60,800 bases of DNA, taken from the NCBI GenBank assembly GCA_919901565.1, contig CAKKPE010000029.1:1-60800 (forward strand). Direction: 5' to 3'. The position numbers and the translations under genes are program-made. Below the pieces are notes generated by a model. That model was not told the DNA's origin. It was given only the letters and a program-made list of their open reading frames with translations, and ran no database searches. The stretch is from a bacterium. Its GTDB lineage: Bacteria; CG2-30-53-67. Shown piece after piece: positions 2,310 through 40,238 of this stretch (its first letter is position 1; each line of letters starts with the position of its first letter).

Positions 2310-4958
2310 TCATGTTTCCTGGTCCTCCATGAGCCGCTTCACTTCCTGCACCTGATCGGCGCTCACGGTTTGCGTACCCGTGAAGATCATCTGATATTTG
2401 AGCTGGTCGGGGTTCAGTTGTTCCCACTTGCGGAGGGCCATGGCCTTCCGGCCTTTCTCGCCGTCTATTGGATGAGCACGGTCATGTTCGCTCTTGATCT
2501 CCACGATATAAATCTTTCCCGAACCGGGTTTGGCGCCCTTCCCGGGCTTCTTGCGCACGATGAAATCAGGCGTGTAGCGCCGCATCTTACCCTTGTCATC
2601 TTTGTACTCTACATAGAACTCGGTCTTTGCGGGATCGGTAATTGCTCCCGTAAAATAGATGTCCTCCACTTCTCCGGGTTTCAGGTTCAAATCAATGAGC
2701 GTCTGTTCAAAAAAGCTCATCTCCGGGTTGGAGTCAAAATTGTACGGCACATAGTGGAATCCCAAATCGCGGGGGTTCTTGTTTTTCATGGCTTCCCATG
2801 AGAGCAGGAGTTTCTCCCGGTCCTTGGGGTAGACGATCTCGGCGGTATAGATTTCATCGCCTGATGGATCAATCTCTTTCTGGAAACCCTCGGGCTTCAC
2901 CAAGGCAAGGGCGACGTCAAATTTCTCTTCTTTGACTTCATAGAACCGCGTCTGCGCCTCGATCTGCCGGCAGAGGTCTCCAAGATGGCTGCTTGGAATA
3001 TCATCGGTCCCGTAGAGTCGCTTCAGTTCATCATAGACCTGCCAGAGATCCATCCGGTAGAGGCCGGAGAGTTCAACAGCCGCGGCATAGCTGTCGAACC
3101 CATCGTGTTCCGTCTCGACGGTTACGGATTCGCCCACCTGCCGAAGAACGCTGTAGGTGGATTGCTGCTCGGCGATAGTGAAGATCTTTTTCAGGAGCCG
3201 GTCCGATGAGCCGTTGAGCGGGCGTTCCAGGCAAAGCGGCTTTGCCACCCCCTCTTTTTTCGTAACGGTTCGTACGATCTGCGTCACAACGAGCGGAGGA
3301 AGATCGAGCTTGCGGAGGACGATCCGTGCACGTCGCGTTTCCTGTCCGGCGTGATTCAGGTCGGCAATGGTCTCACCGTAGGTCTCCTGAAGCTGCCTGT
3401 CGAGGACATTATGGTTGTCCGACGACAGATAGACACGGGCCTTGGCACTATTGCCGGGTACCTGCCGTAAACACCGGGTGGATGCCTGCAGGACGAAATT
3501 ATTCGATGTTTTGAGTTTCCGCGCGAGCGCACAGGCGAAGAGACTCGGGCAGTTCCACCCTTCCGTGCCTTTGTTCACAAGAAGAATCACCCGGTGAGGC
3601 GCCGCAGGGTCGTTGAGCCGATTGAATGCGTCAATATCCGCCTTCTTCGTGAGCGTTTCATCGGACGTGTTCACGAGGCAGATCGTTGGGCTCTGCCCGG
3701 TTTTAACGAGCGCTCGATCTATGGACGGTTTCAACTCCTTCAGATCATCGGTTTGCGGGAAATAGATGGCCAACTTCGCCGGAGCGCCGTTCGGCAATTG
3801 CACATGGCCATAATCTTTGAAGAAGTCTTCAACGACATGGGCGACGTATTTTTTTGGATCGCCGTCAAACTCATAGGCCTGGATGTTTCCCGCAAGATCC
3901 TTGAGGATTCCGTCTGTGATGCCTTGGGAAAGGCCGTACCAGATGACCACGTCCTTGAGCGGCTGTTTTCGGAAATAGGGCGTCCCGGTCGTGTTGATGA
4001 CACAGATAAGATTTGTGTTTGTTGAAAGATAGTCCACGGTCTTGCGGACTTTTTTAAGTTCCTTATCCAGTGACTGTCCGTAGGTGTGATGCGCCTCGTC
4101 CGAGAAGACAGCAAGATGCGGCAGACTTGCGATTGTTTGAAGTCTGAGATTTGCTACTTCGGCCCGCGCCTCGTCCTCGCGCTCAGGATTGAACAGACTG
4201 CCGATATCACCTTTTCTTATGGCTTCTTTTTGGATGCGTATCTTCTCCGTGTTGGTCACAACCACGTTGAAGGATGAGCCGCGAATGACGGGAACATTCT
4301 TTTCGCCGTCTCGCGTAAAGGTAAGCTTGACCGAGGCAGCGAATGCCTTGTGGAGGCGCGGAGGCAGAATTTTCCCATAAGGAACATCAGACAATTCACG
4401 GAGCGATTCAATAATCGTTTTACCCGGTGCGAAAACTAAAGCATTCTGCACAAAAGGGCCGTTAGGATACTCGAACGCCATGGCAAACTCGGTGGCAATA
4501 ATCGCTCCGATAAGGATTGTCTTCCCCGCTCCCATAGCGAGGGCGAGGATGTAGCTGGGGTAGGGAAGCGTCAAAGTTTCACGCAGGGATTCGAGTTTAA
4601 AGTCTTTTACGAAGGCATCGTCATTCTTGATGCGTTGCCATAGGGCATCAAGTCCTTCATCCAGCACAAATGCCTTTATGTCGGTGTGATCGAGACCGAG
4701 AGCGGCCAATAGTTCAGATTGTCTGGAATAGAGTTTTCGATAAAGATCAAAGACGTGCGGCGTGTTTTCAACGAGCCTCAGATACCAATAGGTTTCGAGC
4801 GCCCGGAACTGGGGCCGGCGCAAAAAGCGCAGGTTGCCGGTTTCCGTCTCCATCGACCAATCAAGAATTTCGGCAATAGCAGGAAACATTTCGGAAGGGT
4901 ATGCATGGTTTCGCCACTGGTCCACGCGGGCGGCAATCTGTTGATAAAGATGGCTCAT
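2310..4958 (-). CDS. Type III restriction Res-like DEAD/DEAH helicase-nuclease
   Basis: This large (about 882 residue) SF2 helicase-nuclease resembles type III restriction R subunits. Walker A GAGKT is near residue 140 (ALAMGAGKT) and the Walker B/DEAH box SDEAHH near 286. Later helicase motifs include STRCLRQVPG. A C-terminal PD-(D/E)xK nuclease is visible as YTPDFIV near 796 followed by IVEIKSEHD near 818. Its expected role is ATP-driven translocation and cleavage of foreign DNA together with a Mod subunit. A longer reading from 4997 is open, but the ATG at 4958 with CGGAAAT upstream gives the usual N-terminus (MSHLYQQIAARVDQW). All catalytic motifs look intact, in contrast to the broken methyltransferase downstream. 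Confidence 0.88.
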   Translation of the reverse strand: MSHLYQQIAARVDQWRNHAYPSEMFPAIAEILDWSMETETGNLRFLRRPQFRALETYWYLRLVENTPHVFDLYRKLYSRQSELLAALGLDHTDIKAFVLDEGLDALWQRIKNDDAFVKDFKLESLRETLTLPYPSYILALAMGAGKTILIGAIIATEFAMAFEYPNGPFVQNALVFAPGKTIIESLRELSDVPYGKILPPRLHKAFAASVKLTFTRDGEKNVPVIRGSSFNVVVTNTEKIRIQKEAIRKGDIGSLFNPEREDEARAEVANLRLQTIASLPHLAVFSDEAHHTYGQSLDKELKKVRKTVDYLSTNTNLICVINTTGTPYFRKQPLKDVVIWYGLSQGITDGILKDLAGNIQAYEFDGDPKKYVAHVVEDFFKDYGHVQLPNGAPAKLAIYFPQTDDLKELKPSIDRALVKTGQSPTICLVNTSDETLTKKADIDAFNRLNDPAAPHRVILLVNKGTEGWNCPSLFACALARKLKTSNNFVLQASTRCLRQVPGNSAKARVYLSSDNHNVLDRQLQETYGETIADLNHAGQETRRARIVLRKLDLPPLVVTQIVRTVTKKEGVAKPLCLERPLNGSSDRLLKKIFTIAEQQSTYSVLRQVGESVTVETEHDGFDSYAAAVELSGLYRMDLWQVYDELKRLYGTDDIPSSHLGDLCRQIEAQTRFYEVKEEKFDVALALVKPEGFQKEIDPSGDEIYTAEIVYPKDREKLLLSWEAMKNKNPRDLGFHYVPYNFDSNPEMSFFEQTLIDLNLKPGEVEDIYFTGAITDPAKTEFYVEYKDDKGKMRRYTPDFIVRKKPGKGAKPGSGKIYIVEIKSEHDRAHPIDGEKGRKAMALRKWEQLNPDQLKYQMIFTGTQTVSADQVQEVKRLMEDQET

Positions 4959-16575: not shown

Positions 16576-16632
16576 GTGAAAAAATTCACCCAATAAGAGA
16601 AAAAGTTTTCCCTTTTTCTGTAAACTTTTACA
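16576..16632. promoter_or_regulatory. Cluster of inverted-repeat sites, candidate enhancer of the sigma-54 promoter
   Basis: Three symmetrical sequences are packed together: GTGAA-AAAA-TTCAC (16576-16589), a GAGAAAAAGTTTTCCC block (about 16597-16612) and CTGTAAACTTTTACA (16618-16632, TGTAAA/TTTACA arms). The last is identical, over 15 bases, to a site at 36339-36353 that also lies upstream of a sigma-54 promoter. At about 150-200 bp from the -24 element this is the normal position for an NtrC-type activator. The remaining intergenic sequence 16296-16575 is AT-rich with no gene that I can see. Confidence 0.6.
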
Positions 16633-16775
16633 CACTTGCAACACAGACTTCATATTAATAATATTTTAAAAAGGCATCGAACTGAAAAAAATTAGACTTC
16701 TAATTGCTTGTTTTATTAGGACTTAAATGGCAATAAAATTTTTAGTCGGCACTTAAAAGGGCATTCAACCACCTT

Positions 16776-16791
16776 TGGCACGGCTTTTGCT
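16776..16791 (+). promoter_or_regulatory. Sigma-54 (RpoN) promoter
   Basis: TGGCACG-GCTT-TTGCT matches the sigma-54 consensus TGGCACR-N4-TTGCW at every defined position, with GG (16777-16778) and GC (16789-16790) exactly ten bases apart. Transcription should start near 16802, leaving a leader of about 85 bases to the downstream gene. Confidence 0.85.
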
Positions 16792-19698: not shown

Positions 19699-20610
19699 AT
19701 GATCGATTCCAGGCTGCTCATTTTTTTAAAATCCGCCGACAAATTAAGCTTCTCAGAAGCCGCCAAGGAGCTTTTGCTCACGCAGCCTGCCGTAAGTTTT
19801 CAGATCAAAAAACTCGAGGATTATTTCGGCATTCCCCTGTTCTACCGCGAAAAAAACAGGATTTCCCTGACTGAGGCCGGAGAAATCCTGTTTCGGCAAG
19901 CAAAAAAAATTCTCTCCTGTTACGAAGAGGCGGAAAGGGCCATCGGACAGATCAGCGGGATCGTTCAGGGCCGGATGATGGTTGGAGCCAGCACTACTAT
20001 GGGGGAGTATATCCTTCCGAAGATCCTGGGAGATTTCGAAGGTCGTTATCCTGATGTGAAAACTCTTCTGGAAATAGGGAATTCGGACCGCATCTTAAAC
20101 GGGGTGTTAAGCCGATATCTGGATGTCGGCATTCTGGCTGAAGAGGTGAAAAATCGGGAACTCCATCAGGAAAAAATTATTGAGGATGAGTTGGTCCTGA
20201 TCACATCATCTAAGCATCCCCTTGCCGGGAAAAAGAAGATTAGCCTTCAGGATCTTGAAGGCCAGAGGTTCATTGCCCGGGAGAAAGGATCGGGAACACG
20301 CAAGGAGATTGAATCACATCTGAAAAAGGCCGGGATCGATCCCCAAAAACTTCGAACCACCATGTGGCTCGGCAGCAGCGAGGCCGTCAAAGGGGCAGTG
20401 GAGGGGGGGCTTGGGATCTCAATCCTCTCCCGCTGGGCCATCCAGAAGGAGGTCCGCCTTGGAACCCTTCGTGAAGTACCGATCCAGGGTGTCCGCATGA
20501 TTCGGGACTTTAAGCTGATCTACTATAAAGGAAAAGAGTTTTCCCATGCAATGGGAGTCTTTTTAAAATTTCTCAAGGAATACGATTGGAGCCGTCTTTG
20601 CAGAAAGTAA
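19699..20610 (+). CDS. LysR-family transcriptional regulator
   Basis: A 303-residue LysR regulator. The N-terminal winged HTH is textbook (FLKSADKLSFSEAAKELLLT, QPAVSFQIKKLEDYFGIPLF, LTEAGEILFRQAKKIL). The C-terminal periplasmic-binding-like effector domain runs from about residue 90 (GRMMVGASTTMGEYILPKIL) to the end. The part LGISILSRWAIQKEVRLGTL is typical of the CysB/CbbR-like group. The inducer and targets are not visible. Its stop overlaps the start of the downstream glycosyltransferase, so the two are probably translated together. FmdB is divergent. Confidence 0.9.
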   Translation: MIDSRLLIFLKSADKLSFSEAAKELLLTQPAVSFQIKKLEDYFGIPLFYREKNRISLTEAGEILFRQAKKILSCYEEAERAIGQISGIVQGRMMVGASTTMGEYILPKILGDFEGRYPDVKTLLEIGNSDRILNGVLSRYLDVGILAEEVKNRELHQEKIIEDELVLITSSKHPLAGKKKISLQDLEGQRFIAREKGSGTRKEIESHLKKAGIDPQKLRTTMWLGSSEAVKGAVEGGLGISILSRWAIQKEVRLGTLREVPIQGVRMIRDFKLIYYKGKEFSHAMGVFLKFLKEYDWSRLCRK

Positions 20611-36028: not shown

Positions 36029-36189
36029 ATGACGGCTTCGTAAAAAGTCCGTCTGCGGCGTTGCGCTTCATCCTTCGTCATTGCAGCGTACCTATCAGTA
36101 CGCCTCATTCCTCAGGATTCGCGCGCCTTGCATCCGGAGCTTTTTACTGTGCCGTCCCTTTTGAGGAATTTTTACGAGTCCATCAATAG
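36021..36189. mobile_element. MITE-like element, copy 2, inserted at the end of the OmpA gene
   Basis: The same 150-bp element as at 6521-6692. The left end is GACGGCTTCGTAAAAAGTCC and the right end AATTTTTACGAGTCCATC, an imperfect terminal inverted repeat (GGCTTCGTAAAAA against GGACTCGTAAAAA). It is flanked by ATCAATAG at 36021-36028 and 36182-36189. The left repeat contains the OmpA stop codon, so the duplicated sequence is most simply explained as a target-site duplication. The internal hairpin GCGTAC...GTACGC is kept. Confidence 0.75.
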
Positions 36190-36338: not shown

Positions 36339-36398
36339 CTGTAAACTTTTACATAAAAGTGGAAAGTTTTTACATAAAAGGGGAAAAACTTTTCACAC
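36339..36398. promoter_or_regulatory. Cluster of repeated inverted-repeat sites, candidate sigma-54 enhancer
   Basis: CTGTAAACTTTTACA (36339-36353) is identical to the site at 16618-16632. Two related sequences follow at once: GTGGAAAGTTTTTACATAAAAG (read as GTGGAAAG then TTTTTACA, 36359-36374) and GGGGAAAAACTTTTCAC (36379-36395). They lie about 120-175 bp upstream of the sigma-54 promoter. The rest of the gene-free stretch 36190-36624 is AT-rich, with a short remnant of lower AT between 36415 and 36445 and no gene that I can see. Confidence 0.6.
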
Positions 36399-36513
36399 TC
36401 ATTTTAAAGCTGTTCTTGATGCCGAGGATGAAGGGTCGGAGCAAATCAAATTTTTTTGAAATAAAACAGCGAGTTAAAAAAATAAAGAACATTTCCTTTG
36501 TTAAGGAGTGAAT

Positions 36514-36529
36514 TGGTACAATTATTGCT
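36514..36529 (+). promoter_or_regulatory. Sigma-54 (RpoN) promoter for the PEP-CTERM gene
   Basis: TGGTACA-ATTA-TTGCT fits TGGCACR-N4-TTGCW with one mismatch, and GG (36515-36516) and GC (36527-36528) have the exact ten-base spacing. Transcription would start near 36540, 85 bases before the ATG, the same leader length as in the other sigma-54 unit. Confidence 0.75.
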
Positions 36530-36624: not shown

Positions 36625-37359
36625 ATGAAAAGGGGAAAACTCAGCCGGGGCTTAATGGGTTTATTGATGTGCATTCTATTGATCGTCTGTTTTGTCACCA
36701 GCGCCCATGCAATCAGCTTAACAGTTGACGGCAACCTGAGCGACATACAGGCCGCCGTGGACTCGGATCCGTTGAGAGGGTACACGGTCTCGGATCCGTT
36801 AAACGACGCGGGCAGCAGGGGGTTCGATATTACCAATGTATATTCGTATTACGATGATCCCTCCGATACCCTTTACTTCGGCATCCAGGTACAGGGCACG
36901 GTGGGCAGAGCGTGCGACGCTTTTAACAACCCAACGGGATGTCTGGAATTACTTACCTACCAGAACTTTGACTCAAACGAGAATTACCGCTTCCTTCTCG
37001 ACATTGACTCCAACGGCGGCCCGGATGACGCAACGCTTGCCATTAGAGGAAACGGGAACGGTTCTGCAACCAACGGACCGGGGACAGACGTGATTCTCAG
37101 TTCATTGATACCCAGCGGAGCCTCGTACGCTTATGCCGTGAGCGAGGGTTATAACGGTGTTGAGTTCAGCATCACGGGCTTAGGCATCCTGGGGAAGTAC
37201 TATACGGTGAATTTAGGCGCCGGAAGTGCAAAGGATGGAGCGCCAGAGGAACTCGTCGCCCTGAGTGGGATTGCCGTACCTGAACCCGCTTCCCTGGTCC
37301 TGATCGGTTCGGGGCTTCTCGCCATGGTAGGGCTGTCCCGCAGGCGGAACCGGCGATAA
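36625..37359 (+). CDS. PEP-CTERM sorting-domain surface protein
   Basis: 244 residues. The signal peptide ends AHA at residue 29. The C-terminal tail is a full PEP-CTERM signal: VPEPASLVLIGSG, hydrophobic segment, then RRRNRR. Exosortase cleaves such tails and the protein is then placed at the cell surface, usually together with exopolysaccharide. The body (about 30-215) is a beta-rich domain with Asp/Asn/Gly-rich loops (YYDDPSDTLYFGIQV, FLLDIDSNGGPDDATLAI) and no catalytic motif. An upstream ATG at 36541 is one base from the predicted sigma-54 start site and has no room for a ribosome site; ATG 36625 has GGGGG. No exosortase is in the window. The next gene may share the transcript. Confidence 0.9.
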   Translation: MKRGKLSRGLMGLLMCILLIVCFVTSAHAISLTVDGNLSDIQAAVDSDPLRGYTVSDPLNDAGSRGFDITNVYSYYDDPSDTLYFGIQVQGTVGRACDAFNNPTGCLELLTYQNFDSNENYRFLLDIDSNGGPDDATLAIRGNGNGSATNGPGTDVILSSLIPSGASYAYAVSEGYNGVEFSITGLGILGKYYTVNLGAGSAKDGAPEELVALSGIAVPEPASLVLIGSGLLAMVGLSRRRNRR

Positions 37360-37448
37360 ACATAAGTCTTGTAGGTATTTTAGGTATATATAGATTTCCA
37401 CGAATTGAATTTCCAAAATATTATATAGACAAAGGGAGGACAGAACTC

Positions 37449-40238
37449 ATGAAAACCAGATCCATCTTCACCGCCATTGCTCTGGCCGTATTCTTCTGCT
37501 TTATGATCATCACTCCGGCGTCAGCCGACAATGTGCAGGTCCTGAGCGATCCGCAGGAGATCGCCAGCTTTCTGAGCGGCTATGACATCCAGACCGTCAC
37601 CTTTACTCTGGATTCGAATGACACCATGACCATTGATATCAAGCCCTATGGTGTGCCGGGCGATGCAGACGGGGACGGATTCCCCGACACATCGAGCAAT
37701 CAGACCATTTTGGACGAGCCCGGAGTCGGATACTCCGAAGATATATCGACACTCATATCCTTTCACGATACTGCCTACTGCTCCCCTGACGTCTACATAG
37801 ATTATACCGATAATACGCTGAGCATTTATAACCTTTTCGGCCCCGATCCCATTATCGGACCGACCATGACCGTGACGGCCACGAGCTATGTCCTGACCAT
37901 CCCGAACTACAGCGCGTTCAGGGCCTTGCTGGGGGGGAACCCAGGGGATTTCGGCGCATTTGGTGTTGCCGGCAGCTCGACCGACCAGCAAACTGATGAT
38001 ATGGTCCCCGATTCCGGCTGCGGAATCATTAGCATTACACCGGTTGTCGCCAATGTGAGCCTCGGCGATTTCGTCTGGGGAGACTCGAACGGCAATGGTC
38101 TTCAGGATGCAGGGGAGCCCGGGCTCGATAACGTGACGGTCAACCTTCTGGATTGCAACAATAACATGGCGCTTGTGGACACCACGACCACCGTTTCCGG
38201 CGGCTCCTACACCTTTGCCAATGAGGCCCCGGGCATCTACTCGGTTGAATTTACCGCCCCCGCCGGCTATGTCTTTACGACCAAGGATGTGGGTGGAGAT
38301 GACACCCTCGACAGCGATGCCGACCAGTCTACGGGCCGCACCGCATGTACGGAAATGATCCCAGGGGACACGAACCTGACACTGGATGCGGGCCTGTTCC
38401 AAACCGCTTCCATCGGAAATCTGGTCTGGCATGACTTGAACCGGAACGGGATCCAGGACTCAGGCGAGCCCGGTCTTGACGGGGTAACCGTCAATCTCTA
38501 CGACAATAATGGGAACCTGCTCCAGACGATCACCACGGCCGGAGGCGGGATCTATCAGTTCAGCGGCATGAACCCGGGTAGCTATGTGGTAGAGGTCGTG
38601 CCGCCGTCCGGTTACGTCTTCAGCGATCAGTATGTAGGAACGGACGCTGCTGTCGACAGCAACGTGAGTGTCGGAACGGGCAAGAGCGATGCCGTCGTGC
38701 TGACCTCGGGACAAGCCGACGCCTCCGTGGATGCCGGGCTGAACCAGCTCCCCGCATCCATCGGCAATTATGTCTGGAATGACCTCAACGCGAACGGACT
38801 CCAGGACGGTCTGGAGCCGGGAATCCAAGGTGTTGCCGTTAATTTATATGATAGCTCCAATGTGCTTGTCACATCGACTACCACAGACGTCAACGGTATC
38901 TATGCCTTCAGCAATCTGGATCCCGGCACGTATGTCGTCGAGTTTGTTTATCCTTCCGGTTTCGTCTTCAGCCCAAAGGACGCCGGGACCAATGATGCGA
39001 TTGACAGTGACGCCGATACAACCACCGGCCGGACGGCGACAATCACGCTGGCCCCGAACGAAAGTAATCTGGATGCGGATGCCGGCCTCTATCAGAAGGC
39101 ATCGATCGGTGATTTGGTCTGGGACGATACGGACATGAACGGCATTCAGAATACGGGGGAGCCCGGTATTTCGAATGCAACGGTCAATCTGTACCGATGT
39201 TCCGATAACATCATAGTGGCTGCCGCGACCACGAACGGAAGCGGCAATTATCTGTTCCCCGGCCAGGAACCAGGCAGTTACTACATCGGGTTCGTGGCGC
39301 CGTCGGGTTACGTCTTCACCCTGAAAGATCAGGGAGGGGACGATACCATCGACAGTGATGCTGATCCGGTTACCGGTCAGACGGTGTGTGTCACCCTGAA
39401 TTCGGGGGATAACAATACCAGTGTGGATGCGGGACTCTTTGTCCCTGCAGTTCCGGAAATTACCATGAAGAAGTTTACCAATAATCAGGATGCGGATCAG
39501 CCGACCGGTCCAAACATTGCGGTGGGATCCGTGGTTACCTGGGAGTACGTGGTCACCAACTCGGGTAACGTCGCTTTGACGAATGTCGGGGTCACCGACG
39601 ACAAAGGTGTGGTTGTGACCTGCCCCGGCAGCATTCTGGCCCCGACAGCTACAATGACCTGCACGGCGACCGGTACGGCCGTTGCGGGCCAGTATTCGAA
39701 TATCGGCACGGCCAGCGGCACGGCCCCGTCGGGTGTTGTGGTCACGGCCACGGATCCGAGCCATTACTTTGGCATCGCCGTCCAGGCCGGTGGACAGGGA
39801 TGTTCGGATGGTTTCTGGAAGAACCACACCAACAAGTGGCCGTCCCCGTATACGCCGAGCACGATGTTCTCGGCCGTGTTTGAGAACGCGTTTCCGGGCA
39901 AGACACTCCTTCAGGTCATCTCGCAGGGAGGCGGGGGGCTGACCGCCCTGGGGCGCCAAACCGTAGGAGCGCTGCTGAACGCGGCTGCTACAGGGGTGAG
40001 CTACGACCTGACTCCAGCGCAAGTCATCAGTCAGTTCAATGCGGTTTTCCCGGGAAGCTGCTCTTCCTATGAGCCCTTGAAAAACTCGTTCGAGCAGTTA
40101 AATGAACAGGGATGCCCGATCAGCGGAGGTCGTACCTGTGAGGGAGAAGGTAAGTACGAGGGTAAAGAGTTCCATGAGAAGAAATGGAATGATAAAGATT
40201 CAAAAGATGATAAGAACAAGTGGGGGAGGGACGACTAG
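37449..40238 (+). CDS. Large secreted SdrD-repeat protein with WKNH C-terminal domain
   Basis: 929 residues. The signal peptide cleaves after ASA (residue 26). After a 175-residue unassigned domain come four SdrD/Cna-B type repeats of about 115 residues (starting near 204, 320, 436 and 551). Each has the pattern S-I-G-D-x-V-W-x-D, GNGLQDAGEPG and GGDDTLDSDAD. A DUF11-like beta domain (about 667-775) follows, then a region starting GCSDGFWKNHTNKWP, a motif common in bacterial surface proteins of unknown function. The tail is highly charged (KKWNDKDSKDDKNKW). There is no sortase, PEP-CTERM or membrane anchor, so it is released or held non-covalently. No terminator separates it from the PEP-CTERM gene 89 bp upstream. 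Confidence 0.88.
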   Translation: MKTRSIFTAIALAVFFCFMIITPASADNVQVLSDPQEIASFLSGYDIQTVTFTLDSNDTMTIDIKPYGVPGDADGDGFPDTSSNQTILDEPGVGYSEDISTLISFHDTAYCSPDVYIDYTDNTLSIYNLFGPDPIIGPTMTVTATSYVLTIPNYSAFRALLGGNPGDFGAFGVAGSSTDQQTDDMVPDSGCGIISITPVVANVSLGDFVWGDSNGNGLQDAGEPGLDNVTVNLLDCNNNMALVDTTTTVSGGSYTFANEAPGIYSVEFTAPAGYVFTTKDVGGDDTLDSDADQSTGRTACTEMIPGDTNLTLDAGLFQTASIGNLVWHDLNRNGIQDSGEPGLDGVTVNLYDNNGNLLQTITTAGGGIYQFSGMNPGSYVVEVVPPSGYVFSDQYVGTDAAVDSNVSVGTGKSDAVVLTSGQADASVDAGLNQLPASIGNYVWNDLNANGLQDGLEPGIQGVAVNLYDSSNVLVTSTTTDVNGIYAFSNLDPGTYVVEFVYPSGFVFSPKDAGTNDAIDSDADTTTGRTATITLAPNESNLDADAGLYQKASIGDLVWDDTDMNGIQNTGEPGISNATVNLYRCSDNIIVAAATTNGSGNYLFPGQEPGSYYIGFVAPSGYVFTLKDQGGDDTIDSDADPVTGQTVCVTLNSGDNNTSVDAGLFVPAVPEITMKKFTNNQDADQPTGPNIAVGSVVTWEYVVTNSGNVALTNVGVTDDKGVVVTCPGSILAPTATMTCTATGTAVAGQYSNIGTASGTAPSGVVVTATDPSHYFGIAVQAGGQGCSDGFWKNHTNKWPSPYTPSTMFSAVFENAFPGKTLLQVISQGGGGLTALGRQTVGALLNAAATGVSYDLTPAQVISQFNAVFPGSCSSYEPLKNSFEQLNEQGCPISGGRTCEGEGKYEGKEFHEKKWNDKDSKDDKNKWGRDD
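38058..39440 (+). repeat. Four tandem SdrD-domain coding repeats
   Basis: Repeat units lie at about 38058-38405, 38406-38753, 38754-39098 and 39099-39440, 342-348 bp each. The units are clearly homologous as protein but diverged as DNA, so duplication is not recent. Units 1 and 4 share cysteine pairs (DCNNN/TAC and RCSD/TVC) that units 2 and 3 lack. Confidence 0.8.

Follow-up and report, generated by a model that had tools for sequence, protein, structure and literature searches.

Haft et al. (2006; PMC1569441) described the PEP-CTERM box and predicted PrsR and PrsK; the motif was confined to Proteobacteria, with a few sites lying upstream of other genes too. The regulator DVUA0057 of Desulfovibrio, taken from this prediction, binds upstream of PEP-CTERM genes in DAP-chip experiments (PMC3333781, PMC4641369). 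In Aquincola tertiaricarbonis, pepA is reported to have a mapped sigma-54 promoter, to be RpoN dependent, to carry a predicted upstream enhancer, and to play a role in floc formation (PMC9850573). Finally, EpsI/Nla24 of Myxococcus xanthus is an NtrC-like protein encoded in an exopolysaccharide locus, is needed for exopolysaccharide (EPS), and binds c-di-GMP with a KD of 0.53 uM (PMC4877007).

Here, we analyze a 60,800-nucleotide stretch (contig CAKKPE010000029.1, hereafter the window) from a genome of the uncultured CG2-30-53-67 lineage. Like the PEP-CTERM box with PrsK/PrsR and like DVUA0057, the system described here involves an NtrC-type regulator linked to exosortase and EPS genes, sigma-54 promoters of PEP-CTERM genes, and an upstream motif. 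However, the candidate regulator differs from PrsR, scoring below the TIGR02915 cut-off and carrying another recognition helix, and no PrsK passes its cut-off in this genome. In contrast to the PEP-CTERM box, the motif is GGGAAAA-N2-TTTTCCC in arrays phased by 21 bp, it lies farther from the promoter, and its host is not a proteobacterium. The pepA gene shares a sigma-54 promoter and a predicted upstream enhancer with the PEP-CTERM gene of the window but belongs to a proteobacterium, and the sections of its report considered here cite the predicted PrsK-PrsR and describe no phased array (PMC9850573). EpsI/Nla24 may be regarded as a functional analogue of our candidate, both being NtrC-like response regulators encoded in an exopolysaccharide locus; c-di-GMP is a ligand of EpsI/Nla24 itself, whereas here the link is a GGDEF/HD-GYP gene with an array. 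In the open-access literature, most subscription papers being outside the scope of the search, no account of phased GGAAAA arrays accompanying exosortase operons came to light.

Phased palindrome arrays upstream of sigma-54 promoters

The 15-mer CTGTAAACTTTTACA has exactly two copies in the 2.96-Mb genome (160 contigs, 97% complete), both in the window and each upstream of a good sigma-54 promoter. A sequence-only reading of the window had located both copies and both promoters correctly (Table 1). It had also considered that the 15-mer might be common throughout the genome with no link to sigma-54 promoters, and we find it rare, with no copies beyond these two. At up to two mismatches, no further copy occurs in the window (0.02 expected), and three more places in the genome match, without a link to these promoters. 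The GGGAAAA...CTTTTC sites noted beside each copy are indeed present; they keep a strict 21-bp period and are more regular than first described. The same arrangement of array and sigma-54 promoter is seen at the PEP-CTERM and GGDEF/HD-GYP genes, in agreement with the earlier proposal that the two are controlled alike. No terminator-like site was found in a scan of the junction between the PEP-CTERM and SdrD-repeat genes (37300 to 37560), and we infer that the latter is probably co-transcribed with the former. We attribute a single site at 20530 (GGAAAAGAGTTTTCCC, near 20587) to chance, as it is not accompanied by a proper promoter.

Table 1. Positions of array units, promoters, and genes (window numbering unless a locus is named)
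Feature	Position	Strand	Remarks
Array unit 1, PEP-CTERM promoter	36339..36354	+	CTGTAAACTTTTACAT, includes 15-mer; 175 bp upstream of -24 element
Array unit 2, PEP-CTERM promoter	36360..36375	+	TGGAAAGTTTTTACAT; 21 bp after unit 1
Array unit 3, PEP-CTERM promoter	36381..36396	+	GGGAAAAACTTTTCAC; 21 bp after unit 2; top score in array
Sigma-54 -24/-12 promoter of PEP-CTERM gene	36514..36529	+	TGGTACAATTATTGCT; one mismatch to TGGCACRN4TTGCW
PEP-CTERM protein, 244 aa	36625..37359	+	PF07589 25.2 bits (cut-off 20.7); TIGR02595 22.2 bits (cut-off 16)
SdrD B-like repeat protein, 929 aa	37449..40238	+	PF17210, four repeats; 89 bp downstream of PEP-CTERM gene
Array unit 1, GGDEF/HD-GYP promoter	16576..16591	+	GTGAAAAAATTCACCC
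Array unit 2, GGDEF/HD-GYP promoter	16597..16612	+	GAGAAAAAGTTTTCCC; 21 bp after unit 1; kept in orthologs
Array unit 3, GGDEF/HD-GYP promoter	16618..16633	+	CTGTAAACTTTTACAC, second 15-mer copy; 158 bp upstream of -24 element
Sigma-54 -24/-12 promoter of GGDEF/HD-GYP gene	16776..16791	+	TGGCACGGCTTTTGCT, perfect; sigma-54 site kept there in G001 to G004
GAF-GGDEF-GAF-HD-GYP c-di-GMP signalling protein, 729 aa	16878..19067	+	Pfam domains
NtrC-type response regulator, contig C158	L085 4218-5693		Receiver Asp in LVILDVVMPDMDG; GAFTGA ELFGYERGAFTGA; C-terminal Fis-type helix-turn-helix

Across the genome, the general unit is a 16-bp palindrome, GGGAAAA-N2-TTTTCCC, grouped two or three to an array with 21-bp spacing. 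The consensus of 46 units has G3 and C14 in 45 of 46, nearly fixed A and T tracts, and a free center. What the promoters of this genome have in common is the unit family and not the 15-mer itself; the latter, a version of the unit with TGTAAA/TTTACA, is interchangeable with other units and not the defining site. Palindromes of this type, spaced by 20 to 22 bp, lie upstream of several of the 30 sigma-54-like sites inspected, out of 48 listed genome-wide. There are 16 array-bearing promoters, whose 3'-most unit starts 112 to 213 bp upstream of the -24 element, and a 17th, that of a PEP-CTERM gene of contig C17, has a single unit at -134. The resulting count of at least 17 sigma-54 promoters with one or more units is a minimum, as it comes from pattern searches and limited stretches of DNA.

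Evidence for enrichment comes from a search for paired units (GAAAANNTTTTC-N9-GAAAANNTTTTC) that was blind to both the position weight matrix (PWM) and the promoters and gave 34 matches in the genome versus 2 in the backward control. Among the matches listed, which cover all but about 8 of the paired units, 17 clusters have two mismatches at most. In 15 of these 17, a strict sigma-54 site follows 112 to 213 bp after the point where the 3'-most unit begins; the background is 0.05 such sites per kb per strand, measured in DNA stretches that are already rich in them. These 15 blind clusters thus show inverted repeats 80 to 250 bp upstream of -24/-12 promoters, as is characteristic of NtrC-type activation, and the initial interpretation of the 15-mer site as an upstream activating site for an NtrC-type sigma-54 activator appears correct, the site being a predicted enhancer. 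The two clusters without a strict site are the promoter of the candidate regulator (contig C158) and an array on contig C24. The latter (L044 3857-3912) has three units and lies approximately 180 bp before a gene with a TetR-type-like start. All 16 listed array promoters fit the strict sigma-54 pattern, having been chosen for both features. A PWM scan of the window gives 3 phased pairs versus 0 in 60 first-order Markov shuffles; since the PWM was built from the sites it scores, these units included, our enrichment claims rest on the paired-pattern search. Single units (GGAAAANNTTTTCC, two mismatches) show no overall enrichment (414 versus 407 in the control), and the signal therefore sits in phased pairs and near-perfect units. 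Taken together, the pair counts, the shuffles, and the 15-mer expectation rule out chance in AT-rich DNA as the source of the arrays.

Target genes and their conservation in related genomes

Array promoters precede four PEP-CTERM genes (in the window and on contigs C2, C37, and C17); among eight PEP-CTERM tails found by similarity, four have such a promoter and the other four do not. On contig C35, an array promoter leads into genes for an initiating sugar transferase and a polysaccharide export protein. Further targets, matrix-like proteins among them, are a subtilase with TSP3 repeats, a dockerin/TSP3 protein, and a MopE-repeat protein, and we also observe arrays before genes for an LVIVD-cyclophilin protein, a DUF6531 protein, and two proteins of no known family, one with a beta-helix protein encoded after it and the other with an amidase gene farther downstream. 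In addition, arrays precede the genes for an extracytoplasmic function (ECF) sigma factor, a DUF5658 protein followed by a PilZ protein, and the GGDEF/HD-GYP protein. Judged from these arrangements, the predicted sigma-54 matrix regulon of this genome is real. At the end of contig C35 (L052 5372-5720), one three-unit array lies between divergent sigma-54 promoters, one facing the EPS genes and the other leading off the contig.

The GGDEF/HD-GYP gene has one full-length ortholog in each of five other genomes of the family (56 to 80% identity), and the array upstream of it is kept in all five genomes with upstream sequence available, this one and G001 to G004. Across these five, the DNA between array and promoter is mostly changed while the distance from the last unit to the promoter stays constant, at 158 bp here and in G001 and G003 and 157 bp in G002 and G004. 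G001 and G003 retain CTGTAAACTTTTACAC exactly, and GGAAAA units occupy the place of the 15-mer in G002 (TGGAAAACTTTTGCCC) and G004 (TGGAAAAGTTTTTCTC), which rules out the 15-mer as an independent motif. An array with a strict sigma-54 site also precedes the ECF sigma factor gene in G001, G002, and G004, the gene for a 213-aa protein in G001 and G002, and DUF5658, glycosyltransferase, and PEP-CTERM genes in G001, these genes having been matched to those of our genome by reading protein ends and not by alignment. Of the 19 clusters in relatives, only 11 lie no more than 260 bp from a strict sigma-54 site.

Small repeat elements were also seen. One at 36029-36188 of the window, with inverted ends TGACGGCTTCGTAAAAAGTC ... 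TTTTTACGAGTCCATCA, resembles a miniature transposable element. A similar one (TCGTAAAAA...TTTTTACGA) is apparently inserted in the leader of the GGDEF/HD-GYP gene in G003 (L213); it lies between the sigma-54 promoter and the gene start, and the distance from array to promoter there is still 158 bp. Pairs of TCGTAAAAAGTC with copies 128 bp apart occur at three loci (L048, L061, and L265).

A candidate activator in the exosortase locus

The single exosortase of the genome is encoded on contig C158 within an XrtA-type EPS locus, together with a histidine kinase, an NtrC-type response regulator, an export protein, a chain-length determinant, a tyrosine kinase, an ATPase, and EpsI; the kinase and regulator genes are neighbors and head the operon. 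The response regulator matches the AtoC and NtrC models over its full length and has the domains of the NtrC type (receiver, AAA+ with GAFTGA, and helix-turn-helix). Units lie at 3980, 4001, 4022, and 4053 of L085, between the kinase and regulator genes, and all five orthologs (76 to 89% identity) likewise have an upstream array, which is thus found in six of six family genomes. In this region (L085 3980-4068) and in orthologous ones (L086, L087, L090, and L091), the fourth unit follows the third by 30 to 32 bp, or approximately three helical turns. G001 has a sigma-54 promoter at this array; in our genome the array is without a clear one, and autoregulation may therefore work otherwise. Paired arrays occur in all six genomes with the regulator (34, 20, 13, 23, 13, and 18; controls, 0 to 2), and G006 and G007, of the same class, have neither ortholog nor paired arrays, in a sample of eight closely related genomes of which six belong to one family. 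The recognition helix of the regulator (SYKALLYKIKE; NWNRKRTAEILQVSYKALLYKIKENKI) is almost invariant in the family.

The best explanation, to which we assign a probability of roughly 0.74, is that the C158 regulator is the activator that reads the arrays and the switch of the matrix regulon, because its gene has an upstream array in six of six genomes and an EPS-operon setting, it co-occurs with the arrays, and its recognition helix is conserved. Each 16-bp inverted repeat would be the site of one activator dimer and, as the 21-bp spacing corresponds to two helical turns, neighboring dimers would line up along the same face of the double helix. The phosphorylated regulator is predicted to assemble on the array and to contact RNA polymerase-sigma-54 by looping. 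It would thereby switch on PEP-CTERM proteins, polysaccharide priming and export, and large repeat-bearing secreted proteins, as well as the ECF sigma factor, the DUF5658-PilZ pair, and the GGDEF/HD-GYP enzyme, and may also act on the array that precedes its own gene.

The sequence-only reading had favored an activator of the PrsK/PrsR type, a view that is not supported: no PrsR is found in this genome or in its sister G001, and the arrays track another response regulator. Against the PrsR model (TIGR02915; cut-off, 502.6 bits), the best protein of the genome scores 435.3 bits and the C158 regulator 389.7 bits, with a best alignment that ends at position 400 of 445; against the PrsK model (TIGR02916; cut-off, 300 bits), the best protein reaches 111 bits. 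The TIGR02915 cut-off is exceeded in 13 of 241 genomes, including G002 to G007; at E 1e-140, neither our genome (G000) nor G001 has a match. G002 to G005 encode both PrsR and the C158 regulator, G000 and G001 have arrays but no PrsR, and no arrays are found in G006 and G007, each of which has PrsR and a pair of exosortases. We therefore reject PrsR as the activator, given its absence from our genome and its dissociation from the arrays across relatives. It is likewise very improbable that the arrays are the classic PEP-CTERM box read by PrsR. The logic is the same, a 17-nt motif ending in TTTACA and sometimes repeated upstream of PEP-CTERM sigma-54 promoters (PMC1569441); TTTACA ends both 15-mer copies, and the genome combines the sigma-54 motif, PEP-CTERM genes, and an exosortase. 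However, compared on end and spacing the arrays depart from that box, since the ending is TTTTCC or TTTTCA in most units and the end of the last unit lies approximately 96 to 197 bp from the -24 element, versus 32 to 92 nt between the last copy and motif 2, and the PrsR recognition helix (GNISKAARELGISRVTLHDMLKKY, of the SRVTLHDMLKKY type) differs from that of the C158 regulator.

Another of the approximately 18 NtrC-type activators could read the arrays, with the C158 regulator merely a target, as an array before a regulator gene may equally mean control by another factor. The candidate would be a protein encoded on contig C14, whose recognition helix (DWNKTRAAEQLRVSYKTLLTKIKDYEL) is similar to NWNRKRTAEILQVSYKALLYKIKENKI. 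We consider this unlikely, since the sigma-54 site adjoining the C14 gene (L025) is preceded, at a distance of 85 bp, by another palindrome, TGTAACGCGTTACA, the exosortase-operon setting of the C158 regulator suits the regulated genes, and array presence goes with C158 orthologs over eight genomes, a comparison made for C158 only. The C14 palindrome (L025, approximately 1501-1615) is possibly a separate enhancer code. Least plausible of all is that an architectural protein or a repressor, with no part in sigma-54 activation, occupies the arrays, and that these are near sigma-54 sites merely because both fall in long AT-rich intergenic regions: the units are AT rich and the C24 and C158 arrays are without a strict sigma-54 site, but such a site is at enhancer distance in the other blind clusters and the array-promoter distance is constant to 1 bp over five orthologs.

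Relatives of the regulator in other phyla

Nitrospirae-labelled CG2-30-53-67 MAGs are the closest relatives that carry a name, and the lineage is therefore not proteobacterial. Homologs of the C158 regulator with approximately 45 to 57% identity are found in Nitrospiria, Deltaproteobacteria, Myxococcota, and Acidobacteria, often adjoining EPS and exosortase genes, and 12 sampled homologs have their best E-values against the AtoC and NtrC models, ahead of PrsR. Upstream of the homolog genes, the GGAA-N6-TTCC repeat has a best spacing of 20 bp in Myxococcota and Deltaproteobacteria (mean three-unit score, 18.0 versus ~13.5) and of 21 bp in Nitrospiria (14.0 versus ~12.2), with a weak peak at 19 in Acidobacteria. 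This suggests that distant homologs, too, have periodic units of 19 to 21 bp before their own genes, the periodicity being only suggestive because the sequences within each group are related. Four Nitrospiria homologs (L137, L138, L140, and L141) have a sigma-54-like site (e.g., TGGCATAGAGATTGCG) just before their own start codon, which suggests that the Nitrospiria regulators may activate themselves.

We tentatively propose, at slightly less than even odds, that another family of sigma-54 activators serves exosortase/EPS matrices independently of PrsR in Nitrospirota, Myxococcota, and perhaps Acidobacteriota. Its members would be encoded in XrtA-type EPS operons, read helically phased GGAA-N6-TTCC arrays and, in the CG2-30-53-67 lineage at least, connect matrix proteins with both an ECF sigma factor and c-di-GMP turnover.

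For biofilm-matrix production in an uncultured lineage of Nitrospirae type, these results supply a binding code, point to a probable regulator, and list no fewer than 17 target promoters. Presence and absence across related genomes set the circuit apart from PrsR, at present the regulator associated with PEP-CTERM genes, and one type of enhancer is placed before the genes for both a c-di-GMP enzyme and the ECF sigma factor. One regulator probably raises surface proteins, polysaccharide export, and c-di-GMP signalling jointly and without PrsR, which makes a testable prediction for other phyla whose exosortase operons hold the same type of regulator.
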